A DNA stretch of 64,000 nucleotides, from assembly GCF_042453785.1 (NCBI RefSeq), contig NC_091661.1, positions 30,309,501 to 30,373,500 on the forward strand. The letters are read 5' to 3'. Origin of the DNA: Malus domestica. Lineage: Eukaryota; Streptophyta; Magnoliopsida; Rosales; Rosaceae. Made by a program: the position numbers and the translations under genes. Below are positions 33,610 through 60,759 of the stretch, piece after piece (within the stretch, counting starts at the first letter, position 1; the number at the start of each line of letters is the position of its first letter). Under the pieces are notes generated by a model. The model was not told where the DNA came from. It saw only the letters and a program-made list of their open reading frames with translations, and made no database searches.

Positions 33610-33831
33610 GGACCCGGCTTCTCTACCCTCTCACTTCCCATACACTCTCATCCCTTCCTATTTTGTGCGGTCACAATTAAGCCACGTCAACATTTTATAT
33701 TGATTTTTTTTATAGAGATAATAAGATAAAAAACAATAATAATATAAAATATTAACGCGGTTTAACCGTGACCGCACAAATAGAAAGAGATAGAAGTGTA
33801 TGAAAAGTGGGAGAGCAGAGAAGCTAGGTTC
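33610..33831. mobile_element. Palindromic MULE-type MITE, copy B (222 bp)
   Basis: The left end GGACCCGGCTTCTCTACCCT and the inverted right end (AGCTAGGTTC) match imperfectly. Inner arms carry TTGTGCGGTCACAATTAAGC and its inverted partner. Flanks are AACAAAATT (33601-33609) and GACAAAATT (33832-33840), a 9-bp duplication with one mismatch. The centre matches copy A, so they are the same family. Confidence 0.8.
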
Positions 33832-33840
33832 GACAAAATT

Positions 33841-34335
33841 AGGCATTTGTCACTTGTTTTTATACGGAAGAACAGAAAACCGATGTGATGTCTTTGTTTT
33901 TGTTGTTTGAAATTGTAGAATTGTATTAGAAAGTGGCCCGCATGTAGCTTGTGATAAGAAAATACGGAAGTTCGCACTTTTGATTTATTTTTCATGATAA
34001 ATTTGATGTAACTGAGGGACTGAGAAGCATGTTTTGTTAAATATATGTTAAGTTGCAGGTGATGGGTTGTTTTAATAGGACATGTAGGTCCTCATTTGGT
34101 GATTTTTGAAGAATAATATGACAACAAATTAAGTGTGTGTTGAACATATATCATACTTATAGTGAAGAGTAAAATACTCTCGATCATTTGATTATCTGAC
34201 AAACAATAATTATGTGATTCGGGGACCATGAACAATCATATTGTGAAATATTGGCCACAACGAAGGTGGCAACAAATATTGCAAATGGTAGTACTACTAA
34301 TGTAATTTTCACTTGCAATGAAGTGGTCATGCCGC
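33841..34335. other. Spacer between MITE copies B and C
   Basis: AT-rich; no gene, repeat or motif recognised. Confidence 0.4.
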
Positions 34336-34563
34336 GGAATTGGATCCTTGCTAGATCTAATTGCTGGGATCCTAGGAATCAATCCACGTGGACCGTTGAT
34401 AAAAAATCGTGCGGTCATAATTAAATATTTTAAAAGTAAAATAGTCTCGTTTTGTGTGAAAAATATATAAAAAAAAAATTATGACTGCACGATTTTTGAT
34501 TAACGGCCCACATGGGCTGATCCCTAGGATCCTATGAATTAGATCCGGCGAGGATCCAATTCC
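34336..34563. mobile_element. Palindromic MITE, copy C (228 bp), different family
   Basis: The ends are perfect inverted repeats at the tips (GGAATTGGATCC and GGATCCAATTCC), with further arms such as AAAAATCGTGCGGTCATAAT and its inverse. Flanks are GTCATGCCGC (34326-34335) and GTCACGCCGC (34564-34573), a 10-bp duplication with one mismatch. Its sequence differs from copies A and B. Confidence 0.8.
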
Positions 34564-34573
34564 GTCACGCCGC

Positions 34574-35346
34574 CTACCGCGCATTGCCAAACTCTGTTGG
34601 GAGTGTCACGAGCTACAATAACACTTTTTAGTCCTCACGCCACCTGTTTATAGTAGGAGTTGGTGGCTGATAGGAGAAGAAATTTTTAGTTATGATGGAA
34701 CACGGATGATACATCATGTGTTTTTATGTAAGTGGTGAAAAATTTTAATTTTTAAGTTATTAATCTTTTAAAACACATATCTCACCATTTATATAGAGAC
34801 ACATGTGCGCTCTAATATCAACGGACGCACACTCCTAATTTCTCCATGCGTCCTCCACCAAAAAAAACAGTACCGTGGGCTTTTTGTTAAAACTTCCTTA
34901 ACAAATTTTGAAATTTGAATTGTACTTTGTTTTGAATTTTTTCATTAAAAACTGCTGAACTTTAAAAACAGGGCTACATTGAAGTACATTCAAACATAGA
35001 ATTCAATTTCTCTTCGAATATTAAATAGTGCTCAAACCCTCGCTCACCTCCAACCGTGATCTAAGGGTGACAATGCTTGCCTGTGTGCAGTTGGTGGCTG
35101 GTGGCAAGAGTTAGATACACTCCAAAATTTTCACATGCATACTCCTCAGTCAACTTAGTCCATTCACCAATATTGCTGATATGATTAGATATCCTCATGA
35201 ATTGTAATTTTCTTTTAAATATTTGCATTAGAAACTGTTTGACGCTGAAATCAAAACTCTCTTTCAAAATTAAATAGTATTTAAACTCTCACTCTTTCCA
35301 ACATTATTAGAATAGAATATAGTTTTTAATAAAAAAAGTGTTGGTG
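34574..35346. other. Spacer before the LINE target region
   Basis: AT-rich with remnants of dispersed repeats; a piece at about 34865-34900 (ACAGTACCGTGGGCTTTTTG) recalls the MITE family found at 54915. No gene is supported. Confidence 0.35.
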
Positions 35347-35731
35347 AAATATATTTTTTTGAGTACTTTGCTATGTTTACACTAGGAGGAGGGAGAATTC
35401 AACTAAGTTACCTAATGGGCAGCTTAATTTGGTATCGAATTCGTCATCCACGAGATTCGAACTTAAGATCTCTCACTTCTAAATGAAAAGAAATATCACA
35501 AGACCGTAATACTGAATGATAATACTCAAAACCTGAAACTATTAGTGAATTTTATATCATAAGCAAAATTCAAATTGTCTTCCCTGATAGGATTAGTTTT
35601 TAAAGTGGAAAAAGGACAATTCATAATTTCATATGGGACGAGATTCTCTTCGGATCCTTATATTTTAGCTATTTATCGTTTATCATGCGATCAGTTTTAG
35701 TTAGATACTATTTATGTTTAATTTTATATAA
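35347..35731. repeat. Left 385-bp direct repeat flanking the LINE
   Basis: This segment equals 38851-39235 over all 385 bases with two substitutions (G/A at 35443 and A/G near 35671) and no indel. It contains a SINE-like unit on the minus strand (about 35351-35530) with the B-box-like AGTTCGAATCTC. The LINE starts exactly where the repeat ends. See findings for the target duplication idea. Confidence 0.95.
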
Positions 35732-38700
35732 GCTTGAGAAGGAAAAATACCAAGTTTTTCCATCTCTCTGCGGTGGTGCGGAGAAGGAAAAATAAGCTTG
35801 AAGGCCTTAATAATTCTGAAGGAGTTTGGACAGATGGAAAAGAGAATTTAAAGTCGATTGTTGTCAATTACTTCAAAGATCTTTTTTCATTTCGCATAAC
35901 GACGACAAATATGGAGAGTTTGCCCCATCTATTCCCTTGTCTTAGTGGTGATGACTTAGCTGTCCTAAACGGGGAAGTCACCGATGATGAGATTAAAGAT
36001 TGTATGTTTGCTATTGGTGGTCTCAAGGCCCCTGGACCTGATGGTATCCCTGCTCGTTTCTACCAAAAATTTTGGCATCTTTGTGGCAAGGATATTAGTG
36101 ATATGGTTAAGGGTTGTTTCAATTCAACTCAACTCCCGGACAACATCAACAACACCTTCATCTCATTGATTCCTAAGGTTGATAATCCTACAAGCATGAC
36201 TCAGCTGATGCCTATTAGTCTGTGTTCTACTCTTTACAAGGTCATCTCCAAAATTTTGGTGGGGAAATTGCGACCGCTTCTCCATAAACTTGTTAGCCCT
36301 ACTCAAGTGAGCTTCGTCCCGGGTAGGCAAATTATTGATAATATCATTGTTGCTCAAGAAATCCTCCATAAGTACAGAAACACCAAAGGTAAAAAAGGGT
36401 TCATTGCTTGGAAAATTGACCTTTCCAAAGCTTATGATCGGCTTCAGTGGAGTTTTATTAGAGATGTTCTATGGGAGATTGGGCTAAGAGGGAAAGTCTT
36501 GGAACTTATCATGCAATGCGTTACCACAGTCAAATACCAAGCTATTGTTAATGGTGAGCTCACTGATTCTTTCTCCCCACACTGTGGAATCAGACAGGGA
36601 AATCCCCTCTCTCCCTATTTATTTGTGCTTTGCATGGAAAAACTCTCCCATATCATTAATGGATGCATCACCACTAAGAAATGGAAGCCAGTTAAGCTAG
36701 CTAGAAATGGGCCTTCTGTATCTCATCTCTTTTTTGCGGATGATCTTATTTTGTTTGCGGAAGCCTCCTCAACTCAAGCCAAAATTTTGAAGGATTGTCT
36801 TGATAATTTTTGTGCTGTGTCCGGTCAGCAGGCGAATTTTGATAAATCATGTATCTATTGCTCACCTAATATCTCTCGAAGTAAGGCTACTGAAATTGCC
36901 AACATCTGTGGTTCTCCTCTCACTTCTGATTTAGGTCACTACTTGGGTGTGCCGTTACTGCATTCTAGAGTCAACAAAGAGACTTATGGCAACATTGTGG
37001 AAAAAGTTCAACGTCGACTCTCTGCTTGGAAGAGCAATACCCTCTCTATGGCAGGTAGGCTTGTTTACCTCCAATCAGTCGCCTCAGCCATTCCAATCTA
37101 CTCAATGCAATCTACTCGCCTCCCAATTTCCATATGTGATAAAATTGATAAGTTGAACAGGAATTTCTTATGAGGCCACACTGAGGGAAATTCCAAGGTT
37201 CACCTTGTTAAGTGGGAGACAATTTGCACGCCTAAATTCATGGGCGGGTTAGGATTGAAAGATACTCATGTTATGAACCAAGCCCTCCTTGCTAAAACTG
37301 GCTGGAAACTTATGCAAAGAGACTCGGGCCTATGGGCGCAAGTTTTAAAGGGAAAGTATCTCAAACACCATGACATGGTGGGTGCTTGCTCTGCTAAGTA
37401 CACTAATTGTTCTCATACTTGGCGTGGAATCCTCTTTGGTGCCCAAATCCTTCCTAATGGTATGAGATGAAGAGTCGGATCTGGAAGCCAAATTCATTTT
37501 TGGAAAGACAACTGGCTTGAGTGTGGAGTGCTCAAAGATTTTGCTACCATCTCTCTTTCAGACGACATGCTTGACTGGACAGTTGAAGACTTCCTTACTG
37601 ATTCTGGTTGGAATGTAGATTTGTTATACTCCTGCCTTCCTCCTGATGTTGTGGAACATATTTTCAGTTTACATGCTGGAATTGCGAATCAAAGGGAAGA
37701 TAAGATAATTTGGAGCCTCACCAATTCTGGAACATTATCCGTGAAAACTGCCTATCTCTCTCTTTTTAGCGATGATGATATCATTCCCTGGAAATGGAAC
37801 TTCATTTGGAAACTCAAGTTGCCCCCCAAATTAGTGACTTTTCTCTGGACTATTGGTTATGGGAAAATGCTCACCAATGTGCAGAGAGCTAAAAAAGGTT
37901 TTACAAATGATCCGTGTTGTCCAATCTGCCCTACTGTTGAGGAATCAATGGATCATATTTTCAGGTATTGTAGGCATTCTCCTTCCCTTTGGAATAATGT
38001 TGGAATCCCATATGAAGTTGCCCATTCCTTTGCTCTTGATTTTCAGAGTTGGATGGCCATAAATCTTAGGACACATTGTTCTACCACTCATGGTTTACCC
38101 TGGAACCTCATCTTTGCTTCAACTTTGTGGTATTGCTGGAAAATGAGGAACATGTTTGTCTTCAATAATGGACAACAACCGCCTGTCCCACCCCTTAAGG
38201 TTATTTTTCAATTTGCAAGAGATTGGTATGATGCCAACAAGTGTTCTTCTAGTAAGCCTCCTAGACAAATCATCTCAATCCATTGGATCCGTCCGCCAAT
38301 TGGTAGATATAAAATCAATACAGATGGGAGTTGTAAAGATCCATTTAGCCACATAAGTGCCGGAGGTTTGATTCGCAATTCTGAAGGGGATTGGATTAAG
38401 GGATTTGCTGCTAATTTAGGCAGAGGAACCATCATGGAAGCTGAGCTTTGGGGTGTTCTCATGGGCCTTTCTATAGCTTGGGACGAGGGTTGCAGGGACG
38501 TGATCCTTGAATGCGATTCTTGGGATGCTGTTATTTCAATCCAAAAACCTATATTGGCTTTGTACCCACTTTACAATCTCATTCTTGACTGCAAAGAAGC
38601 CATTGAAAGAAATTAGAGATGCGAAGTCATTCATATCTATCGAGAAAAGAATGCATCAGCTGATCATATGGCTGACTTGGGTCATGGGCTATTCCTTGGC

Positions 38701-38850
38701 CTTCATGTTTTTGTTTCTCCTCATTCCTCTGCTACTAATTTTCTAGCTTCTGATTCTATTGGCAGAGCCCTTCCTAGGGCTGTTCTTGCCTAGTTCTGTT
38801 TGTCTTTGTTTTGCTTGTCTGGCTTTGCCATCCTCTGTACCAAAAAAAAG
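35732..38850 (+). mobile_element. 5'-truncated LINE retrotransposon (RT, zf-RVT, RNase H)
   Basis: A single plus-strand frame from 35734 to about 38793 encodes the later part of a plant LINE ORF2. It begins just before the reverse transcriptase (NTKFFHLSAVVRRRKN), so the endonuclease is missing. The RT has GGLKAPGPDGIPARFYQKFW (from 36018), IRQGNPLSPYLFVL and FADD (36733-36744). A zinc-binding zf-RVT segment follows at about 37800-37990, then an RNase H domain with DGS, EAEL and ECDS carrying the D-E-D residues (38320-38530). Three in-frame stops break it, at 37171 (TGA), 37468 (TGA) and 38614 (TAG). It ends in CTCTGTACC plus eight A residues. It cannot move on its own. Confidence 0.93.
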
Positions 38851-39235
38851 AAATATATTTTTTTGAGTACTTTGCTATGTTTACACTAGGAGGAGGGAGA
38901 ATTCAACTAAGTTACCTAATGGGCAGCTTAATTTGGTATCGAATTCATCATCCACGAGATTCGAACTTAAGATCTCTCACTTCTAAATGAAAAGAAATAT
39001 CACAAGACCGTAATACTGAATGATAATACTCAAAACCTGAAACTATTAGTGAATTTTATATCATAAGCAAAATTCAAATTGTCTTCCCTGATAGGATTAG
39101 TTTTTAAAGTGGAAAAAGGACAATTCATAATTTCATATGGGACGAGATTCTCTTCGGATCCTTATATTTTAGCTGTTTATCGTTTATCATGCGATCAGTT
39201 TTAGTTAGATACTATTTATGTTTAATTTTATATAA
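38851..39235. repeat. Right 385-bp direct repeat flanking the LINE
   Basis: The second copy of the sequence at 35347-35731, starting right after the LINE's A-tail. After it the sequence continues into unique DNA leading to the UGT promoter. Confidence 0.95.
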
Positions 39236-39563
39236 AAAATTAAAAATAAATTTTTACCGATATATAATGAACGACTAAGATGTAAGGATTCTTAAGATCC
39301 CCATCATTTGAATCCAAATTCCATTCATATGGACATAAAAAGAAATAAGACATTTCCTAAAAGACATATAATATTTACAAAAATGTATCCACTTGTCATC
39401 TTGATTTTCCAATAACAAAAAATTGACAGATAATAATTTTTTATTTCTTATTTTTATCAAAAAAAAAAAATTGATGAGTGATTAAGGAAGAACCGAAGAA
39501 AGTATATAAGAACAGTTGTGATCAGGGAGCGCAGCTACAAAACCCTCACAGAGACAGAGAGCT
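39236..39563 (+). promoter_or_regulatory. Promoter and leader of the first intact UGT gene
   Basis: AT-rich with an A-run at 39460-39470. AGTATATAAGA at 39499-39509 is a fair TATA box, about 60 bases before the ATG. The LINE and right repeat end only about 330 bases upstream of the ATG, so the insertion may have changed the gene's upstream control. That last point is inference. Confidence 0.5.
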
Positions 39564-40991
39564 ATGGAGGAAGTAGCTATCGTTTTATATCCATCACCGC
39601 CGATTGGCCACTTGGTCTCCATGGTAGAGCTAGGCAAGCTCATACTCACCCACCACCCTTCTCTGCGCGTCCACATCCTCATCACCACCCCGCCCTACCG
39701 CGCCGACGACACCGCCTCATACATCACCTCCGTTTCCGCCACCATCCCTTCCCTCATCTTCCACCACCTCCCCACCATCTCTCTCCCTCCCTCCCTCGCC
39801 TCCTCCCCCAACCACGAAACCCTAACCTTCGAAGTCCTACGCCTCAACAACCCTAACGTCCACCAAGCCCTCCTCTCCATCTCCCAGAACTTCTCCATCA
39901 AAGCTTTTGTCATGGACTTCTTCTGCGCTCTCGGGCTCTCCGTTGCCACCGAGCTGAGCATCCCCAGCTACTTCTTCTACACGTCCGGCGCCGCCACCCT
40001 CGCCGGCTTCCTTTGCTTCCCCACCATTCACAACAATACCGACAAAAGCCTCAAAGACCTAAATACCCTTATCAACATTCCAGGAGTCCCGCCGATTCCT
40101 TCCTCCGATATGGCGAAACCGATTCTTGAACGAAACGACAAGGCGTACGAACATTTCCTAGAAAGCTCAAAGCAGTTCCCCAAATCCGCTGGGGTTATCG
40201 TAAACACGTTCGAATCTCTCGAACCTAGAGCTCTCAAAGCAATATCGGACGGTCTGTGCTTGCCCGAGAACTTTCCCACGCCGCCGGTCTACCCCATCGG
40301 ACCGCTGATTGTTTCCCACGGCGGTGGAGGCCGCGGGGTCGAGTGTTTGAAATGGCTGGACTCACAGCCAAGTGGAAGCGTGGTGTTCCTCTGTTTTGGG
40401 AGCTTGGGATTGTTTTCAAAGGAGCAGTTGAAGGAAATTGCAATTGGGTTGGAGAATAGTGGGCAGAGATTTTTGTGGGTGGTCCGTAATCCGCCGGCCC
40501 ATAATCAAATTGGGGTGGCCATTACGGACCAGTCCGATCCAGAATTGAAATCTTTGCTTCCCGATGGGTTCTTGGATCGGACCAAAGACCACGGTCTCGT
40601 GGTCAAGACGTGGGCCCCGCAAATGGCGGTGTTGAATCACGACTCGGTGGGTGGGTTTGTGAGTCATTGCGGGTGGAACTCGGTGTTGGAATCGGTGTGT
40701 GCTGGGGTGCCGATGGTGGCTTGGCCACTCTACGCCGAGCAGAGATTCAACCGGGTCGTTTTGGTGGAGGAGATTAAAATTGCATTGCCAATGAACGAGT
40801 CGGAAGACGGGTTTGTGATTGCGGCAGAGGTGGAGAAGCGAGTTATCGAGTTGATGGACTCGTCCGAGGGCGAGTCGATTAGGATGCGTACAAAGGCTTT
40901 TCAGAACGAAGCCCATGCAGCGTTGGATGAGGGCGGGTCGTCTCGGGTTGCATTGAATAAACTACTTGAACTATGGAGCCAAACCGGTTAG
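39564..40991 (+). CDS. UDP-glycosyltransferase, UGT88A-like (copy 2, intact)
   Basis: A single exon of 475 aa, the usual UGT length. The catalytic His is H16 ([16 protein letters not shown]), and the partner Asp lies in [11 protein letters not shown] near residue 119. The PSPG signature runs from residue 350 to 393: [20 protein letters not shown], then [20 protein letters not shown] and YAEQ. The final Gln favours UDP-glucose, as known for the family. From memory the sequence is closest to the UGT88A1 group ([30 protein letters not shown]). UGT88 enzymes glucosylate phenolics such as flavonoids, chalcones and dihydrochalcones; the substrate of this one cannot be read from sequence. It is cytosolic by family. 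It lies in a four-copy tandem cluster, with the next intact copy about 1.8 kb downstream. Confidence 0.94.
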
Positions 40992-42785: not shown

Positions 42786-44246
42786 ATGGAGGCTATAGTT
42801 TTATACCCATCACCGGCAATAGGCCACTTGGTCACCATGGTGGAGCTTGGCAAACTCATACTTACAACTCGCTCTCCAAATTCTATATCCATCCACATCC
42901 TCATCACCACTCCCCCATATAGGGTGGATGATACTGCTTCGTATATCGCCTCCATCTCTTCCGATTCCATCATCTTCCACCACCTCCCCGCCATCTCACT
43001 CCCTCCCTGCGCCACCTCCTCAGTGCCCGCACACGAAACCTTAATCTGTGACGTCCTCCGCCTCAACAATCCTAATGTCCATAATTCTCTCCGTTCCATC
43101 ATCGACAAAAACTACAAGATTCAAGCCTTTGTCATGGACATCTTCTGCTCTCCTGCGCTTTCTGTCGTCACCAAACTCAACATCCCCGGTTATTTCCTCT
43201 TCACCTCTGGCGCAGCCTGCCTCGCCTGCGCCCTCTACCTTCCCACCATTCACAAAATCATAGACAAAAGCATAAAAGACTTAAATACCCTTCTCACCAT
43301 CCCGGGATCACCACCTATCCCATCTTCAGATATGCCGAAACCCCTTCGAGATCGTAACAATATAGTTTACGACTCCTTTGTCGAAAACTCAATCGAGTTG
43401 GCCAAATCAGCCGGCATTATAGTAAACACCTTCGAACGGCTCGAGCCGAGAGCCGTTAAAGAAATATCAGACGGACTGTGTGTGCCGGATGGCCCCACGC
43501 CGCCTGTCTACTGCATCGGACCGCTGATAGTAGCCGTTGCGTACAACAAAAGAGCTGCAGGAATGCACTCAGGAGGTGATAACGTGTCCAAGTGTCTGAC
43601 GTGGCTGGACTCTCAGCCACGTGGCAGCGTGGTGTTTCTATGTTTTGGAAGCCTAGGGTTGTTCAGTAAAGAGCAGCTGAAGGAAATAGCGTTAGGGTTG
43701 GAGAGGAGTGGGCATAGGTTTTTGTGGGTGGTGCGAAATCCTCCTAATTCTCAAAACGGTCAAACCGTTGACCTTACGGTTCAAGCCGGACCGGATTTGG
43801 AATCTTTGCTTCCGGATGGATTTTTGGGTAGGACCAAAGACAGGGGGCTTGTGGTGAAGATGTGGGCACCACAAGTGGCGGTGTTGAACCATGACTCCGT
43901 AGGAGGGTTTGTTACTCACTGCGGGTGGAACTCGGTGTTGGAGGCGGTGTGCGCGGGAGTGCCGATGGTTGCTTGGCCGCTGTATGCGGAGCAAAGGTTT
44001 AATAGAGTTGTGCTGGTGGAGGAGATCAAGATTGCTTTGCCGATGGACGATTCGAAAGACGGGTTTGTGAGTGCGGCTGAGGTGGAGAAACGAGTTACTG
44101 AATTGATGAACTCGGACTCGATGGAAGGTAATTCCATCCGGGTTCGGGCCAAGGATATGCAAATTGAAGCACGTGCTGCGTTGAGTGAGAGCGGGACGTC
44201 TAGGGTTGCATTAACTAGACTCCTAAAGTCGTGGAACCAATCATAG
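42786..44246 (+). CDS. UDP-glycosyltransferase, UGT88A-like (copy 3, intact)
   Basis: A single exon of 486 aa, clearly a tandem paralogue of the gene at 39564. The catalytic His is H14 (PSPAIGHLVTMVELGK), with AFVMDIFCSPAL carrying the partner Asp. The PSPG motif is residues 360-403, starting [20 protein letters not shown] and ending [23 protein letters not shown] and [13 protein letters not shown] are shared with its neighbour. Two short insertions relative to the neighbour lie before the WLDSQP block (KRAAGMHSGGDN) and in the loop after RNPP. GC-rich third positions in the 5' half give many spurious reverse-strand frames. The substrate is unknown; the same family considerations apply as for copy 2. 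Confidence 0.94.
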   Translation: MEAIVLYPSPAIGHLVTMVELGKLILTTRSPNSISIHILITTPPYRVDDTASYIASISSDSIIFHHLPAISLPPCATSSVPAHETLICDVLRLNNPNVHNSLRSIIDKNYKIQAFVMDIFCSPALSVVTKLNIPGYFLFTSGAACLACALYLPTIHKIIDKSIKDLNTLLTIPGSPPIPSSDMPKPLRDRNNIVYDSFVENSIELAKSAGIIVNTFERLEPRAVKEISDGLCVPDGPTPPVYCIGPLIVAVAYNKRAAGMHSGGDNVSKCLTWLDSQPRGSVVFLCFGSLGLFSKEQLKEIALGLERSGHRFLWVVRNPPNSQNGQTVDLTVQAGPDLESLLPDGFLGRTKDRGLVVKMWAPQVAVLNHDSVGGFVTHCGWNSVLEAVCAGVPMVAWPLYAEQRFNRVVLVEEIKIALPMDDSKDGFVSAAEVEKRVTELMNSDSMEGNSIRVRAKDMQIEARAALSESGTSRVALTRLLKSWNQS

Positions 44247-45736: not shown

Positions 45737-46350
45737 ATGGCAGAGGCAATAGTTTTGTATCCGTTTCCAGGATTGGGTCACCTTATCGCCTTGGTATTCG
45801 GGAAGCCATTACTTACTCCACCCCCCCCCCCTCCCCCTCTCCTTCCTTTCATTCTCCATCACAATCTTCGTTTCCACCGGGCCAACCACCACGGTCGACA
45901 CCACTAAACTTGTCACAGACTCCAACACTCAACCAACAACATACGTACTTGGCAAAAAAAAAAAAAAAAAAAAAAACTGACAACATACGTAGAATCAGTT
46001 CCACCACCCATCCTTCCTTCAACTTCCAACACCTCCCAAACCTGTCCTCGATCCGCCCATTATCGCTTTCAAGATCACGCGACTTCACATCCGCAAAGCC
46101 CTCCAAACCCTTTCCCAAACAACCAACTCCAAAGCCTTTACCATTGACATGTCCTGCGACACTGCGTTTGACGTCGCAAGAGACCTCAACATCCCAACCT
46201 TTTACTTCTACACCTCCGCCGCCAATACCCTTGCCGTGTTCTTCACTGAAACAAGTCAACTGATTTTCCTAAGCCCATTCCCATCTCCGGCATACCGCAA
46301 TTCCCAGTTTCAGCATTTGCCCACAACACTATTCTACCGCAGTTTAAAAT
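45737..46350 (+). pseudogene. UGT88-type glycosyltransferase pseudogene (copy 4)
   Basis: The start MAEAIVLYPFPGLGHLIALV at 45737 is UGT-like and retains the His. Then come a C-run (45821-45832), a stop at 45905 and an A-run of about 23 bases (45954-45976). Further on, in changed frames, are FNFQHLPNLSS and at about 46130-46245 AFTIDMSCDTAFDVARDLNI, then PTFYFYTSAANTLAVFF. Homology ends near 46255, and no PSPG motif follows. Only the N-terminal third survives with several frameshifts. Confidence 0.85.
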
Positions 46351-49090: not shown

Positions 49091-49425
49091 TGTTGAGAGT
49101 TGTCCCACATTGGTGAGGGACAAAGTTTGCTATGTGCTTGTATGATATTGGGCTACTCCTCATATTACCAATTGGTTTTATGGTGGAACCTCAATTTCAT
49201 CATGGTATCAAAGCAAGGTTGTCCACGTGTGAAGCCCAATGGCCACACGCGCTCCACATCACCCAGTTGTTGTCTACGTGTAGGCTTGAAAATCCGCCAC
49301 ATGTGCAGAGGCGTGTTGAGAGTTGTCCCACATTGGTGAGGGACAAGGTTTGTTATGTGCTTATATGATATTGGGCTACTCCTCATATGGCCAATTGGTT
49401 TTATGGTGGAACTTCAATTTCATCA
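49091..49425 (+). mobile_element. Complete 335-bp TRIM retrotransposon
   Basis: Two 112-bp LTRs (49091-49202 and 49314-49425) start TGTTGAGAGTTGTCCCACAT and end TTTCATCA, with the TG...CA borders of LTR elements. They differ at about eight positions. Right after the left LTR is TGGTATCAAAGCAAGG, a primer-binding site of the initiator-Met tRNA type. The 111-base interior has no coding sequence. AAGTA flanks both sides (49086-49090 and 49426-49430), a 5-bp target duplication. Confidence 0.93.
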
Positions 49426-50227: not shown

Positions 50228-50758
50228 TGACAAGAGCAACTTCCCAATGGGTCACCTATCCTGGAAGTGCTCTCGTATGCTACTCGCTTAACTTCAGAGT
50301 TCCAACGGAACCCGAAGCCAATGAGCTCCCAAAAAGCCTCGTGCTAGGTAGGGATAAGAATATACATTTAAATATCACTCCCCTTGACGATGTGGGATCT
50401 TACAATCCACCCCCCTTAAGGGGCCCGACGACCTCGTCGGCACACCACGGCCAGGGTTAGGCTCTGATACCATTTGTCACGTCCCGGCCCGAGATCCACC
50501 ACATCCTGGGCCCGATCCACCACCGTAGCACGATATTGTCCGCTTTGGGCTTACCATTCTCTCATTATTTTGTTTTTGGGAACTCACGAGCAACTTCCTA
50601 GTGGGTCACTCATCCTTGGAGTGCTCTCGTGTGCTACTCGCTTAACTTCAGAGTTCCAATGGAACCCGAAGCCAGTGAGCTCCCAAAAGGTCTCGTGCTA
50701 GGTAGGGATGAGAATATACATTTAAGGATCACTCCCCTGCGCGATGTGGGATCTTACA
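50228..50758 (-). mobile_element. Cassandra TRIM retrotransposon, 3' LTR truncated
   Basis: In minus orientation the 5' LTR is 50758-50475 (284 bp, TGTAAGATCCCACATCG to GGGACGTGACA). It is followed by TGGTATCAGAGC (50472-50461), the initiator-Met primer site. A purine tract (AAGGGGGGTGGAT) precedes the 3' LTR, which runs from 50404 and stops at about 50228, lacking its last 100 bases. Both LTRs contain text matching the 5S rRNA gene in reverse (AACTTCCCAATGGGTCACC, CGCTTAACTTCAGAGTTC), the hallmark of Cassandra. There is no coding region. Confidence 0.92.
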
Positions 50759-52772: not shown

Positions 52773-54370
52773 GGAGTTTTAGGTGGTGGGTTGGACACGG
52801 AGAAGAAAGAGAAGTTGGAATGTTACTAGTAGCGGAAGAGAGAGGGATGCATGCATACAATTGAAAATTATTGTGTGCTGATGGTATTTGGTTTCTTTGA
52901 GTTTGGCATGCATGTAATGTTGGTGGAGTACTATGAATTGAAGGGCCAAAACTAATTAAATAGGTTGGGGATTGTAGATGTGTACGAAGTCAAGTTGGCT
53001 AGTTAAGATAGTATATATCTTTCTTCTGCATTATTCTGCATTAAGTTTTAATTTTTTTTGTCAATTAAATTATAATTTCGCTAGTATAAAAGAATTTGGT
53101 AATTTTTTTCTTCCTTCATCTTCTCAGTTTATTATGATGATTGAAATTTTATTCTTATAATTCATATTGAACTGAAACTAGGAAACATGCGTGGAATTTG
53201 CTTTTCTATTTAACTAAATAAGAAGAAAAAAAAGGGTAAAATATAAAGAAAAGTGCAAGTAAAAGAAATTTCAAAAGTAGTTGTGGGAGTAGAATTGGCA
53301 AAGTGGCCAATATGTTGCATGAAGAAGCATGTGAGCAAATCCATTTTTTTGTATCTCACTCCAAATTCACGAGCCTACATCTGTGCTCTCTTTCTGTCAT
53401 ATGCTTTTGTTTGAGAGTATAGTTGAGGCTTGGATAAAGCATTTCAATAGGCTGCCTTCACTTGACGACATGCTTTTGTATTAAATAACTGCACGTCCGT
53501 GAGTCCTACAACCCTACATGCACGATGAAATGATATGCACTTGCATAAAATATATAAATAATGCTCGCATTCTCCCACTCAAGAAATGGGCTCATTCTCA
53601 ACTTGTAAATAATATATTTTTATCGTTAAAATTTTATAATTGGAACTGTTAAATCTCTTAATCTTCATTTAAAGATTTTTTCTATAAAAAAATCATTCGA
53701 ATCGAACATCGTTTAGTCATCCAAATATATCAAACAAATCAACGGCTATGAATATGCTACTTGGTACCTACATCATTGATTTATTTTGATACATTTGAAT
53801 GACTAAGCGAGCTTCGGTTCGAAATAATTTTTTTTTTTGTAAGAATGATCTTCTAATAATGATTAAGAAATTGAACGGTTTTGATTATAATTTTTTTTTT
53901 TTTGGTAAAATAGATTCTTTGAAAGAGGTGGAATAAACTCATCCCTCCAAGAGGGGGATTACAAGTATTATTCGTCCATAATATGTAGTTATTAGTTTCC
54001 TTCGTGCATGAGGCTTGATATTATTTCTTTTTTGTCAGTTGGAGCCAGGATTGGTAATGAGCCAATATTACACAGTACGTATATATGATAGGAAGGCATA
54101 GGTGGGGTTGATCAAAGGCAAACTAAGCAGTAGTACCAAGACTATTAATTATAGATAAACTATAAGAATTGAATTGATCAAAGAATAAGAAAACGACACA
54201 ACGTGACAAAAAGAAAGTATCCAACGATAACGTCTTGACAAAAAAAATAGATAACCATAAAGCTTAATAAAATAAAAATCAGCAGAAAATAAAAGAAAAT
54301 TTCAAAATATAATGATTGAATACCATGAAAGATAACAAACTCTAGTATTCTAAAAGATGCTTATATAGTC
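52773..54370. other. Upstream region of the ABCG gene and spacer
   Basis: Bases 52773-52870 are probably leader. The rest is AT-rich with no gene. Around 53620-53880 two inverted, diverged segments (AACCGAACATCGTTTAGTCA-like and its reverse) hint at a decayed MITE without clear ends. Confidence 0.4.
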
Positions 54371-54550
54371 ACTCAGTACTACGGTCAGATGATATTTTTT
54401 TTCACTTGAAAGTGAAATGTCTCAAGTTCGAATTTCGTAGATAACGAATTCGATACCAAATTAAGCTACTTATTGTGTGATTTTGCTATTGTGTGATTTT
54501 ACCGAACTCCTCATCCTCTTAATGTAAAAAATATCGATGTACTAAAAAAA
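54371..54550 (+). mobile_element. tRNA-derived SINE-like element
   Basis: It starts ACTCAGTACTACGGTCAGAT, has B-box-like AAGTTCGAATTTCG, then ACGAATTCGATACCAAATTA, and ends with GATGTACTAAAAAAA, a short A-tail. The same unit occurs reversed inside both 385-bp repeats that flank the LINE (35351 and 38855). An internal 15-base duplication (TATTGTGTGATTTTG) is specific to this copy. Confidence 0.6.
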
Positions 54551-54803
54551 TGCTTATATAGGCCTCTTGGCCCTAGACTTTTTAGGAGTACAAACACAAA
54601 ACGAATTAGAAAAATCACATAATAGAGAAAAGTATATTCTAAAATCTTAAAATAATGATAAAACATTAGTAAACAATGAAATTCGATTGAAAATGCCTAT
54701 ACAGCAAGGCGAAGCGCTAAGACTTACTTATGATGTCGTTTTCTTCGAACCGGATCAAGGTCATAGGTCTAAATCTGCAAAGTTTAAAATTTTGTGTCGG
54801 ATT

Positions 54804-57800
54804 TGTTACAACCAATCAAATATCAATTATACAATATATAATAATTACATAGTTTATTTCGAATTACAATTTCATTATATACACAATATGCCAGAATATG
54901 AACAATTAATAAAAAGGAAAACTAATGAAAAGGGTTTGAAAACTTTGAGTTTTAATGATAAGGACAAAATAAAGGGTAAAGTGAATAGTACCAGGATTAA
55001 CTTTTTAGTGTAAAAATGTGGTTTTTGGTTAAAGTGAACAGTACCGGGTGCTTTTCGTTAAAGTTCCCTTAATAAAACTGCATATAAAATCATAACAATA
55101 ATCACTAACTTGTTTATGGAAGATAGAGACTTGCAGTAGTAATCTCCTAAGATAGAAATTCGCCCCTACACCAGTGCAGTAGTTCACGGACGTCTATCTT
55201 GCAGGATACAACTATCTAACCCAAATTCTTACACTCGAGCTTGGATTCTTAACGAATTTACTATGTGTTTCTCTGTGAAGGATCAGAGAGAGAGCAATGG
55301 AATTGTTTCTTCGTTTCTGATATCACAGCCATATATATAATGGCGTTTTTGAACAGTTATGGTTGTTCATTCTTATCCTTTCAAAATTGATGTACCTATT
55401 TTTGTAAACAATCTTATCCTTTCAGAAAAAACTAAATCCTAAAATTAAAAACGTAAAAATCGTACTTGTATTTTTCGTCCATCTGAGCCCCAAAGCCCAT
55501 CTTTGACATTTAATAAATACACCCAAACCTTCCAAGTCCAAGGGCCAAGGTCCATGGCTTTGGCCTAATTCCTTTCAAACAATAAGTGAGTGAACTCACT
55601 TATAAAGGGGAATTAGGTAAAGTGTATGGGCGATGTGGGACAATAGCCCCTCACAAGTTCCAACAATATACCACATTTTCTATTCAAACTCTAGCAATAC
55701 CCCACATTTGAATAGAAAATAAGATACTAACTAAATTAGTAACGTCTTTCTAAAGAACTAAGATATGATACGCATCGAGATAGGTGTCTTTTGGACTTGA
55801 ACCTTCTCTAGTGAGTACTTATCGGATTTACCAAATGAAGCAATGAATTTAATATCTTGAACTAATCATTCTTTGTAGCAAATCGAAACAATAAGTATCC
55901 CACATATCACATCTTAACACACTTCAAATTCATACGATTGTGTTCATTTTGGTCTTGAACATATCCTGATTTCATGAGACCTTTAGAAAATTGTAGTCAT
56001 ATCAATTCTCAAAGATGCGACCCCACATCAATCTCATACAGGTAATGCTAATCAAGAATATCATGTTCTATTCATCTTAACTAGAAGATATTAGCATTAT
56101 TAAGAATAGGGATTCACCTTCTTCGTCTTACAGGCAACACACTGTTTTCCATCATAAGAATGAGTAAGGATTGTGTATTTCTTACCTTGAGTTTTCCTCA
56201 ACTAGTTTACTTATTGAACCTAGACCATGGGATCTCCAATTAGATAGGGTAGGTTTCCGTCAAGTTATAACTCATTGAGTTGGCTTTAAACTTATTCCCC
56301 TCAATGTAAATGTCACTTGATCCTTGGGTAGGCCTTTAGTCAAAGGATCGACAATGTTCTCATTAGATTTAATATAGTCAATGGAAATAGTTCCATTCTT
56401 GAGTAGTTGTCTAATGGTTATATGTCTTCGCCTTATATGTCTCGACTTCCCATTATATTCAGCGTTTTGGCTCGACCTTGTGCAGCCATGCTGTCACAAT
56501 GTATGCATACTGCAGTCACAGGCTTGGGCCATAATGGAATATCTTCCAGAAAATGTTTAAGCCATTCAGCTTCATTAGCAGCTGCATCTAAGGCTATAAA
56601 CTCTGATTCCATTGTCGAATGTGCTATACACGTTTACTTAGACAATTTCCATACACAACTGCTTCACCAAGTGTAAATACATATCCATTTGTGGATTTAC
56701 TGTCTGTACTCCCTGAAATCCAATTTGCATCACTATATCCTTCTAATTTGGGGATATTAAGTGTAATGCAAACCATAGTTCATTGTATGCTTTAAATATC
56801 TTAATACCCTTAGTAAAGCATTCCAATGATCTATTCCAGGATTACTTGAATACCTGCTTAATCGGCTTATTGAATAAGCGAGATCAGATTTTGTACAATT
56901 CATAATGTACATCAAGCAACCTATAACTTGGGTATACTCCAATTAAGATACGTTATCTTCTTCATTTTTAGCAAGTTTATGAATGAAATCAAATGGAGTT
57001 ACGGCAGGTTTATAATCATAATGTCCAAACATTTTTAGAACCTTTTCGACATAATGTGATTGAGTTAGAACATATCCATCTAAATTCTTTAGAGTTCGAA
57101 CTCCAAGAATCACATCAGCTATTCCCATATCTTTCATATCAAAGCTAGAATTTAGCATTTTCTTTGTGGAATTAATCACATCTTTGTTTGTTCCCATTAT
57201 GAGCATGTCATCAACATATAGACATATAATAACACATGCATTTTTCGTTTGCTTAACATAAATGCATTTATCACTTTCATTGATTACAAATCCGTTTAAG
57301 ACTGAATTTTTCATGTCATTGCTTAGGAGCTTGTTTAAGTCCATATAATGACTTAATCATATTGCAAACCTTCTTTTCTTGACCTTTGACAATGAAACCT
57401 TCAAGTTGTTCCATATATATTTCTTCGTCTAATTCACCATTTAAAAATACAGTCTTGACATCCATTTGATGTATCTCGAGATTGTAAACAGACGTTATAG
57501 TTATTAACAACCTCATAGATGTTATTCTAGCTATTGGTGAATAAGTGTCAAAGTAGTCAAGTCCTTCTTTTTGACGATACCCTTTGGCAACTAGACGAGC
57601 TTTATACTAGTCTATGGTATCATCCGATCTCAATTTCTTGTTGAAAATCCATTTGTGTCCTATTGGTTTATTTCCCGAAGGCAAATTAACCAATTCCCAT
57701 GTATTATTTTGCATAATGGATTCCATTTCACTTTGAATAACTTCTTTCCAATAAGGTGCTTCAGAGGATTCTAATACAGCCTTACAAGTTTGAGGCTCTT

Positions 57801-60759
57801 CTTCGGTTAGATAAGTGAGGAAGTTAGGACCAAAATCCTTCGTAAATTTTGCCCTTTTACTATTCCTGGTTCCAAACTTGGCTTTGGATTCTAGAAGTTG
57901 AAGCTTGATTATCGTTATTATTTCTCGTAGTATCATCATGTACTTTTTTATTCAAAACATATGACATATCTTTATAAGGAAAATTTTCCTCAAAGAACTT
58001 AGCTTATGTAGATTCAAGTATTGTATTTACGTGAATGTCTGCAATTTCAGATTTATTAACCAAAAATCTGTATGCTGAACTATTATTGGCGTGACCAATA
58101 AATATACAATCCACTGTTTTTGGTCCAAACTTTTGTCTCTTCAGAAGAGGCACTTGAACTTTCGCAAGATAACCCCACACCTTCAAAGTTTTATATGTAG
58201 GTAACCTACCTTTCCAAATTTCATAAGGAGATTGATTAGTCTTCTTATGTGGTATTCGGTTCAATATTGTGTTGGCAGCAAGGAGTGTCTCACCCCATAA
58301 ATTATGTGGTGCACCAAAATCGATAACATGGAATTAATCATATCTTTCAATGTTTGGTTTTTTCGTTCAGCCACTCTGTTTTGTTGAGGAGTATATGGTG
58401 CTGTCGTTTGATATACTATTCCATGTTTCGAAAAAAAATTTGCAAAGTCATTAGATTCGTATTCACCACCTCTATCCGACCTTAAGACTTTTATTATTTT
58501 GTCTAGTTGATTTTCGACTTCAGCTTTAAATGTCTTAAACATATTTAAAGCTTCATCTTTGCTATGAATCAAATAAACATAACAATACTTATTGCAATCA
58601 TTAATGAAAGAAATATAGTAGTTATTTCCTCCACGAGTTGGTGTGGACTTGAAATCACAAAGATCACCATGGATTAAACCAAGTATTGCATTGGATTTTT
58701 CCACTGATTTATATGAATGTCTTGCATATTTGGATTATGTGCATATCTCACATTTAGATACTTTGTTCATGGAACATTTGGGCAATAGGCCTAAGTTAAC
58801 CATTCTTTGAAGAGAACAAAAATTAACATGTCCTAATCTTGCATGCCATAATGTAGAGGACTCAATCAAGTAAGCAGAAGAAGCACTAAACTTGTTATTA
58901 TTATTAATAGCATCAGCAGAAAGTACATTCAATTTGAAGAGCCCCTCAGCCAAGTAGCCATTTCCCACATACACCTCACCCTTGGTGATTACAAACTTAT
59001 CATATTCAAAGACTAATTTGAAACCTTTATTACTCAGAAGTGATCCAGAAATCAGATTCTTGCGAATATCAGGAACATGCAGAACATTGGTGAGTGAAAG
59101 CTCTTTTCCAGAAGTGAGTTTGAGCGTCACTTTTCCCTTCCCTACCACGGCAGATGCAATTGCATTTCCCATGTACATATTTTCTCCACCATCAATTAGT
59201 TGGTAAGAAACAAATAAATTCCGATCAGTACAAACATGCCTTGTTGCTCATGTATCAACCCACCAATCATTGGAATTAGTAAATAAATTGACCTCAAATA
59301 CAATAGCAACAAACTTTCCTTCTGAAATGTTTGTTTGATTGGAATTCTCAATATTCTGATCCTTCTTGTGGTGACAATCTTTGGCCATATAACCTATCTT
59401 TCCACAAACCCAGTAAACTCCTTTGACTTTCTTGAAGGTTTTCCCTTTCGCAGCAGTCAGTGATTCCTTTGTAACATCATTGCCTTTGTTTTTCTGATGG
59501 TGCTTTGCCTTGTGTGAGTTTCATCCTTCCACAATATTGGCTTTTGCCTCCAGCAATAAGGCATCATACTTCTCATTTTTGCGATAATTTTTTTCCACAC
59601 GCAGTTTGAGAATCAATTAATCCATGATCATGTCTTCAGTTAGATGCTTCAAATAAATCTTAAAGTCCTTCCAATTTGAAAGCAGTTTCTCTATAATAGA
59701 GCCAATCATAAAGCCTTATTTCTAACCAAGATTATTTTCATCTAACTCATGAATAATCACTTGGAGTTCTTCAACATGCTTGACAACAGACTTGGTGTCA
59801 CTCATCTTGTAATTCAGAAATTTTCCGATCACAAACTTCTTGGAACTAGCCATTTCAGACATATTTTTTGTCCATAGACTCCCACATATCTTTACTCGTC
59901 TTATATGATGAATAAACATCATACAGAGAGTCATCTAAAGCATTCATAATGTAATTCCTGCATCGAAATTCACTGTGAGTCCAGGCTTGTATAGCCTGCA
60001 GAATTTTGACAGGAATGTCTCCTTCTTCTGGTGCTTCAGGGGCCTCAGAAGTAAAGACGTGACTCAAGTTCATAGTTGTCAAGTAGAACAACATCTTATG
60101 TTGCCAAAGTTTAAAATCAACTCCCTTGAATTTCTCAGGTTTCTCAACGTGTTGCTTGACGACACCAACATTTGATTGATCCATGGAATAGAATTTTCTG
60201 TCTTAGATTGTTATAACCAATCAAATATCAATTATACAATATATAATAATTGCACATTTTATTTCGAATTACAATTTCACTATATACACAATATACCATA
60301 ATATGAATAATTAATAAAACTGCATATAAAATCATAACAATAATCACTGACTTGTTTATGGAAGATAGAGGCTTGGGCGTGAAGGATCAAAGAGAGAGCA
60401 ATGGAATTGTTTCTTCGTTTCTGATATCACAGCCATATATGTAATGACGTTTTTGAACAGTTATGGTTGTACATTCTTATCCTTTCAGAATGGATGTAAC
60501 TATTTTTGTAAACAGTCTTATCCTTTCAGAAAAAATTGAATCCTAAAATCAAAAACGTAAAAATCGTACTAATGTTTTTCGTCCATCTGAGCCCCAAGGG
60601 CAAGATCCATCTTTGACATTTAATATATATACCCAAACCTTCCAAGTCCAAGGCCCAAGATCCATATCTTTGGCCGAATTCCTTTCAAACAATAGGTGAG
60701 TGAACTCACTTATAAAGGGGAATTAGGTAAAGTGTATGGGCGATTCACAAGTTCCAACA
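54804..60759 (-). mobile_element. Decayed Ty1/Copia LTR retrotransposon, 5.96 kb
   Basis: The 5' LTR is 60759-60209 (551 bp, TGTTGGAACTTGTGA to TAACA). The 3' LTR is 55665-54804 (862 bp), enlarged by a nested MITE and by about 130 bases absent from the other LTR. GGATT flanks both ends (54799-54803 and 60760-60764), a 5-bp target duplication. Read on the minus strand the order is gag (60184 to about 59560), a degraded zinc knuckle (about 59390), protease with a stop in its active-site motif (about 59255), integrase (59178-58004, with PYTPQQN), RT (57939-56757, with YVDDM) and RNase H (about 56650-56440). Integrase before RT marks Copia. Many stops and frameshifts interrupt it, and no good primer site follows the 5' LTR. 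It is inactive. Confidence 0.93.
54915..55069. mobile_element. MITE nested in the 3' LTR of the Copia element
   Basis: About 155 bases with ends AGGAAAACTAATGAAAAG and (reverse) AGGGAACTTTAACGAAAAG. TTAATAAAA occurs on both sides (54906-54914 and 55069-55077). The other LTR has TTAATAAAACTGC without insertion and serves as the empty site. Related but decayed sequence is at 11290-11460. Confidence 0.85.

Follow-up and report, generated by a model that had tools for sequence, protein, structure and literature searches.

In a stretch of 64,000 nucleotides of Malus domestica DNA (NC_091661.1, positions 30,309,501 to 30,373,500; hereafter the window, whose own numbering is used throughout), a 5'-truncated long interspersed nuclear element (LINE) stands between two near-identical direct repeats of 386 bp. 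These repeats very probably arose in one retrotransposition event with a 386-bp target-site duplication, which is a much simpler account than two events. On balance, the part of the reaction carried out by the LINE itself appears normal, and it is the second break, at the edge of a hairpin loop in an older palindromic repeat, that sets this insertion apart.

The two repeat copies differ by two transitions and no gaps (G at 35443 against A at 38947, and A at 35671 against G at 39175), and a BLAST comparison within the window gave E = 0.0, which rules out a chance match. An earlier note on this DNA had described repeats of 385 bp with two substitutions and no gap. The differences and the absence of gaps stand, while the length has to be raised by one base, as identity reaches one position to the left of the 385-base blocks (G at 35346 and 38850). 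The G that follows the LINE's A-tail also precedes AAATAT in the left copy and is therefore counted as part of the repeat. The boundaries are sharp on both copies. The left copy begins at ..GGT/G and ends at ..TATATAA/GCTTGAG, where the LINE starts; the right copy begins at ..AAAAAAAA/G, directly after the LINE tail, and ends at ..TATATAA/AAAATTAAAA. The repeats adjoin the LINE exactly on both sides, and the earlier description of a truncated LINE with an A-tail that fills the intervening space without remainder is borne out.

Divergence between the copies is 2 in 386 (0.52%, 95% interval 0.06-1.9%). At plant substitution rates of 1.3e-8 and 6.5e-9 this corresponds to roughly 199-399 thousand years (24 thousand to 1.4 million years across the interval), and the age would be overestimated if a repair polymerase made errors during the duplication. 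The insertion is thus roughly what can be called fairly young, and the earlier description of it as recent is right in outline only, given an interval of about 0.02-1.4 million years.

To learn what the duplicated segment is, we searched the window's own assembly (651,096,769 bases in 19 contigs). From 2851 first-look candidates, 40 matches were scored, and among these the 386-bp repeat is complete in the two window copies only. The other 38 cover its first part only (up to position 180). This first part resembles a short interspersed nuclear element (SINE), and its A-tail sits at the left edge of the repeat, the site of the first nick. It contains a tRNA B-box-like motif, and we assume it to be of the tRNA type. 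A second SINE-like copy lies in the window at 54357-54560 in forward orientation (about 84% identical over 99 bases) and carries a duplication of its own, 11 bp long (ATGCTTATATA, at 54357 and 54550). Together, this second copy and the B-box-like motif suggest that the first part of the repeat is a SINE in reverse orientation; a search of Rfam gave 0 matches. The remaining, non-SINE half was likewise found at full length only in the two window copies, with no third such copy in the assembly among the 40 matches scored of 728 first-look candidates. The other 38 matches span 54-90 bases and lie within its last 91.

Those short matches belong to a palindromic repeat, a unit of about 165 bp with inverted-repeat structure, which we judge to resemble a miniature inverted-repeat transposable element (MITE). 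All eight genome copies that were fetched align through the edge between 39235 and 39236: one of them extends as far as 39250 and the other seven to positions between 39272 and 39331. In alignments to the left copy, every one of the eight ends at 35726-35731. Since the MITE-like copies run through the right edge and stop at the left copy, the right edge is ancestral, and the LINE cuts the repeat near its middle at the left copy. The duplicated stretch is older DNA that runs from the SINE tail to the MITE centre and is not a mobile unit itself. Two further MITE-like inverted repeats lie near the LINE, at 34335-34564 (88-nt arms, 84% complementary) and 33662-33780 (50-nt arms, 80%).

This composition bears on two other explanations of the repeats. 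Near-identical direct repeats around a coding element resemble long terminal repeats (LTRs), and the 386 bp could in principle be an LTR pair or other mobile element with the LINE inside. We give this next to no credence: the repeat joins unrelated SINE-like and half MITE-like parts, its non-SINE half occurs at full length nowhere else among the matches scored, and the inner element has the domains and A-tail of a LINE. The locus is also known from assembled sequence alone, and an error of assembly or of haplotype merging could produce a doubled segment. We consider this very unlikely, as the window is without any N, two sites distinguish the copies, and the matches scored contain no third full-length copy of the non-SINE half. 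The edges of the repeat also fall together with the ends of the LINE and at plausible sites, namely a nick of the family's type and a hairpin loop, as set out below.

The LINE is assigned to the L1 type by judgement, from its domain order. Its second open reading frame (ORF2) is present from before the reverse transcriptase domain and yields RVT_1 (4.4e-33), zf-RVT (4e-17) and RVT_3, of the RNase H type (5e-13). It has two in-frame stops, at 37171-37173 and 37468-37470, and is otherwise open to 38616. No endonuclease domain was matched in the open reading frames of the window copy, nor does it have a first open reading frame (ORF1), which the 5' truncation explains. The 3' end reads CTCTGTACC followed by A8 and then GAAATAT.

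A whole-LINE search of the genome gave 50 matches, of which 30 loci were kept; in the viral and prokaryote contigs searched there was no relative. Two relatives match the window LINE end to end at about 95% identity (133 of 3118 and 143 of 3116 aligned positions differ). In full they measure 6075 bp (L049) and 6069 bp (L050), are 98.6% alike over 6023 columns and reach about 3 kb further upstream than the window LINE; we regard both as nearly complete. The two do not align over their initial 63 and 48 bases, which gives these otherwise similar elements different 5' starts. Their target-site duplications are 14 bp (GAAGACTCACATGT) and 16 bp (GAATATGATTATGATA). At 15 further loci that have the 3' end, a clear adjacent duplication was seen in three, with cores of 11 bp (L016), 13 bp (L017) and 10 bp (L031). 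Five longer stretches were also inspected. One has 18 bp (L052), one has 16 bp, or 28 bp with mismatches (L054), and two (L053 and L055) have no recognisable duplication; the fifth, L051, is the element already counted as L012, again with none recognisable.

In all, 7 of the 21 places have a clear duplication, whose exact core measures 10-18 bp, and none is recognisable at the other 14. What counts as clear is a judgement, given that many places have diverged and most were viewed with 1.5 kb of flank only, and the 21 places stand for no more than 18 independent insertions, since flanks are common to L031, L032 and L033 and also to L029 and L035. No long repeat was found at the LINE ends at any of them. 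Exact flank repeats of at least 16 bp occur only at L035 (40, 24 and 19 bp), and these lie 1364-1455 bases before the LINE start and 853-960 bases after its end, so they are not at the ends. Against exact cores of 10-18 bp, a duplication of 386 bp is exceptional among the places examined.

The first nick appears to have been made in the usual way for this family. The duplication starts with GAAATAT here and with GAAGACT and GAATATG in the two 6.07-kb relatives, and it is this shared GAA start that makes the first nick look ordinary. The duplication cores of the truncated relatives L016, L017 and L031 begin otherwise than with GAA. Immediately before the duplication stands a T in the window copy, and a C and a T in the two 6.07-kb relatives. 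The corresponding nick, TTTC/a, is reported among the sites used by human L1 (PMC5223499).

The same final map would result if a 386-bp tandem had existed beforehand and the LINE had later entered exactly at its junction. With the repeat start taken as 35347, such a tandem would have AAA after both right ends, a possible microhomology. However, the LINE would have had to strike one exact junction, and at the nick site there is the same GAA start as in its relatives. The LINE would also be left nearly without a duplication of its own. We looked for an ordinary short duplication hidden at the LINE ends and found no more than 2 bp at the junction, rising to 5 bp when the ends are allowed to move by about 10-15 bases, against 10-18 bp in its relatives. 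We therefore regard a prior duplication as improbable, and the single event with an exceptionally long duplication, as proposed in the earlier note, fits best.

The 5' junction of the LINE is irregular. Where the relatives read GCTTAGAGAAGGAGATAAAAATACC, the window copy reads GCTTGAGAAGGAAAAATACC, and gaps concentrate there: 5 of 8 gap bases against L010, and 5 of 9 against L011, fall in the first 12 of 3118 positions. Together with the preceding TAA, the junction (35729-35749) is a rotated copy of 35781-35801. A swapped 21-mer of this kind was found at 6 of 63867 window positions, two of which are the junction itself, and a recurrence of at least 12 bases at none of the 2940 interior LINE positions. 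Simulation of 20000 sequences gave no swaps, no recurrences of at least 14 bases and two of at least 12. These chance figures overstate the case for filler, since the relatives have similar native sequence at this place; a reading of the junction purely as templated filler was dropped for the same reason. Templated filler at plant integration junctions has been discussed in connection with polymerase theta, and that this polymerase acted at the window junction is a guess. Template jumps or small deletions alike point to error-prone joining of unfinished complementary DNA (cDNA).

The break in the upper strand, between 39235 and 39236, falls at the exact 3' edge of the loop of a hairpin within the MITE-like repeat. 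This hairpin ranks first in 38850-39850 with a score of 13.5 (next 9.7, the others listed 6.0-9.7), and the lowest of 961 folding energies calculated for 40-base segments falls over it. A break in this position provides the free 3' end on which our model depends. It is conceivable, though we hold this with somewhat less than even confidence, that the host supplied the second-strand cut at the hairpin, the palindromic MITE having been extruded next to the LINE nick and its loop opened on the 3' side. A similarly tentative account keeps the same single insertion and takes the second break to be an unrelated nick, or the end of a replication fork, 386 bases away, with the hairpin a coincidence. 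Long human L1 duplications in cells deficient in nucleotide excision repair (NER) have been explained by a distant unrelated nick (PMC5223499), and AT-rich DNA holds many weak hairpins, as the lower scores above illustrate. Coincidence has more difficulty with the position of the break, as of all hairpins scanned within 1 kb it is the strongest whose loop ends, on the 3' side, exactly where the strand broke. The break matches one of about 1000 positions exactly, which looks striking, yet the match was noticed post hoc. Our confidence in a single event is the sum of what we place in these two versions of it, with the hairpin as cause and with the hairpin as bystander.

For the version in which the hairpin takes part, the course of events might have been as follows. 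The LINE endonuclease would have nicked the lower strand at TTTC/A, in the tail of the old SINE, a site that is visible in the sequence. By standard target-primed reverse transcription, the freed 3' end would then have primed synthesis on the A-tail. The break in the upper strand would have come 386 bases downstream instead of about 15, at the 3' edge of the loop in the MITE-like hairpin, where the end of the right copy lies; the cut may have been made by a nuclease of the host that acts on hairpins, or a stalled hairpin may have broken. The 3' end ..TATATAA would next have been joined to unfinished cDNA in an error-prone manner, perhaps through microhomology, which would account for the irregular 5' junction and the truncated copy of 3.1 kb. 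Fill-in of the two 386-base overhangs would finally have yielded both repeat copies.

Several considerations weigh against this picture. It is drawn from a single case and read from the filled site alone, and repeats of just this kind would also result from a distant unrelated nick or from the breakage of a replication fork. The link to the hairpin was spotted only after the MITE had been recognised, with no test set in advance, and the region is AT-rich. Folded as single-stranded DNA, 39130-39340 reaches -21.8 kcal/mol against a mean of -14.3 for shuffled sequences (z -2.5), so the whole repeat folds only moderately better than its shuffles, 7 of 200 of which were as good. The 5' junction may equally be two small deletions in otherwise colinear LINE sequence. 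Finally, the argument from the nick site rests on the GAA start only, as the preceding base is mostly A in the poplar LINE Celine, unlike here (PMC11288735).

Table 1. Positions in the window of the LINE, its flanking repeats and the features at their edges
Feature	Position	Strand	Remarks
Left copy of the 386-bp target-site duplication	35346..35731	+	ends close to the middle of the MITE-like repeat, which is cut short there
Right copy of the 386-bp target-site duplication	38850..39235	+	two differences from the left copy
5'-truncated L1-type LINE	35732..38849	+	3118 bp; reverse transcriptase, zf-RVT, RNase H; two relatives of 6.07 kb
LINE A-tail (A8)	38842..38849	+	sequence
Irregular 5' junction	35732..35749	+	gapped against relatives
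Probable first nick, 5'-ATTTC/ACC-3'	35345..35346	-	GAA start common to L049 and L050
Hairpin, 16-base arms with one mismatch, loop 39230-39235	39214..39251	+	strongest scanned within 1 kb of the first nick
Old SINE-like repeat	35345..35519 (also in the right copy)	-	38 other genome matches, 81-86%, among 40 scored
Palindromic MITE-like repeat	39150..39315	+	crosses the right edge of the right copy unbroken

Beyond the insertion, an open reading frame for a UDP-glycosyltransferase (39564-40991, UDPGT domain) has its start codon 328 bases after the right repeat. Two further segments, 42792-43217 and 46087-46231, are similar to its first part and probably mark a tandem cluster. The window also has direct repeats about 5 kb apart (55275-55634 and 60379-60744; 54785-54914 and 60189-60319; 55069-55133 and 60311-60375), which are 65-366 bp long, 89-97% identical and possibly of local duplication origin. 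At shorter range, direct repeats occur at 49091-49202 and 49314-49425 (95%) and at 50231-50404 and 50585-50758 (90%).

HERV-K(HML-2) is an LTR element and inserts by an integrase-based mechanism. It is nevertheless comparable to the present case as a retroelement with unusually long flanking duplications (PMC5488345). Transposed genes in Arabidopsis likewise have long flanking direct repeats that are single at the orthologous site, for which a long target duplication is one explanation. They are genes rather than LINEs, no A-tail is described in the portions of that report relevant here, and recombination between the flanking repeats is discussed (PMC2869330).

Among LINEs, long duplications are already a known kind of event. 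For example, human L1 insertions in repair-deficient cells produced duplications of 217, 275, 277, 407 and 503 bp, and up to 6765 bp; those above 100 bp never exceeded 10% of events in HeLa cells and dominate in NER-deficient cells (PMC5223499). The likeness extends to an L1-type insert, mostly with an A-tail, and to first nicks that include TTTC/a. However, those insertions were engineered in cultured mutant cells, and the sections describing them do not mention hairpins, whereas here a natural plant insertion ends at a hairpin loop (PMC5223499). In repair-proficient cells, a parallel is ZfL2-2, with one 1228-bp duplication among 25 insertions in wild-type DT40 cells, although this is a zebrafish L2-type element in a chicken cell line (PMC2666801). 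A further study collected only duplications of 5-30 bp and states that 5'-truncated L1 copies in HeLa assays often come with extreme changes to the target (PMC2912911). Celine resembles the apple element in being a plant LINE that has an A-tail, and G or T is the usual first base of its duplications, often with A as the second; these duplications measure 10-30 bp with a mean of 15 bp (PMC11288735). L1-like retrocopies in dicots have duplications of 13-17 bp, with one doubtful case of 33 bp (PMC4838847). Our literature search, which was incomplete in coverage and mostly at the level of abstracts, returned no long duplication of a plant LINE and none linked to a hairpin. What sets the present case apart is the natural plant LINE and its coincidence with a hairpin loop.

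It is not settled which agent cuts the second strand when a LINE inserts, or why this cut sometimes falls hundreds of bases away; the account of a distant second cut in human cells is termed speculative by its own authors (PMC5223499). For the host, the insertion leaves a whole extra segment of 386 bp, and the glycosyltransferase gene thereby keeps an intact copy beside it, about 330 bases upstream. The case also offers a hypothesis that can be settled by counting: strong hairpins should be found at the ends of long duplications more frequently than chance would predict. If the hairpin reading is true, the distance from the nick to the nearest strong hairpin would set the length of the duplication, and MITEs would be generators of long LINE-linked duplications.

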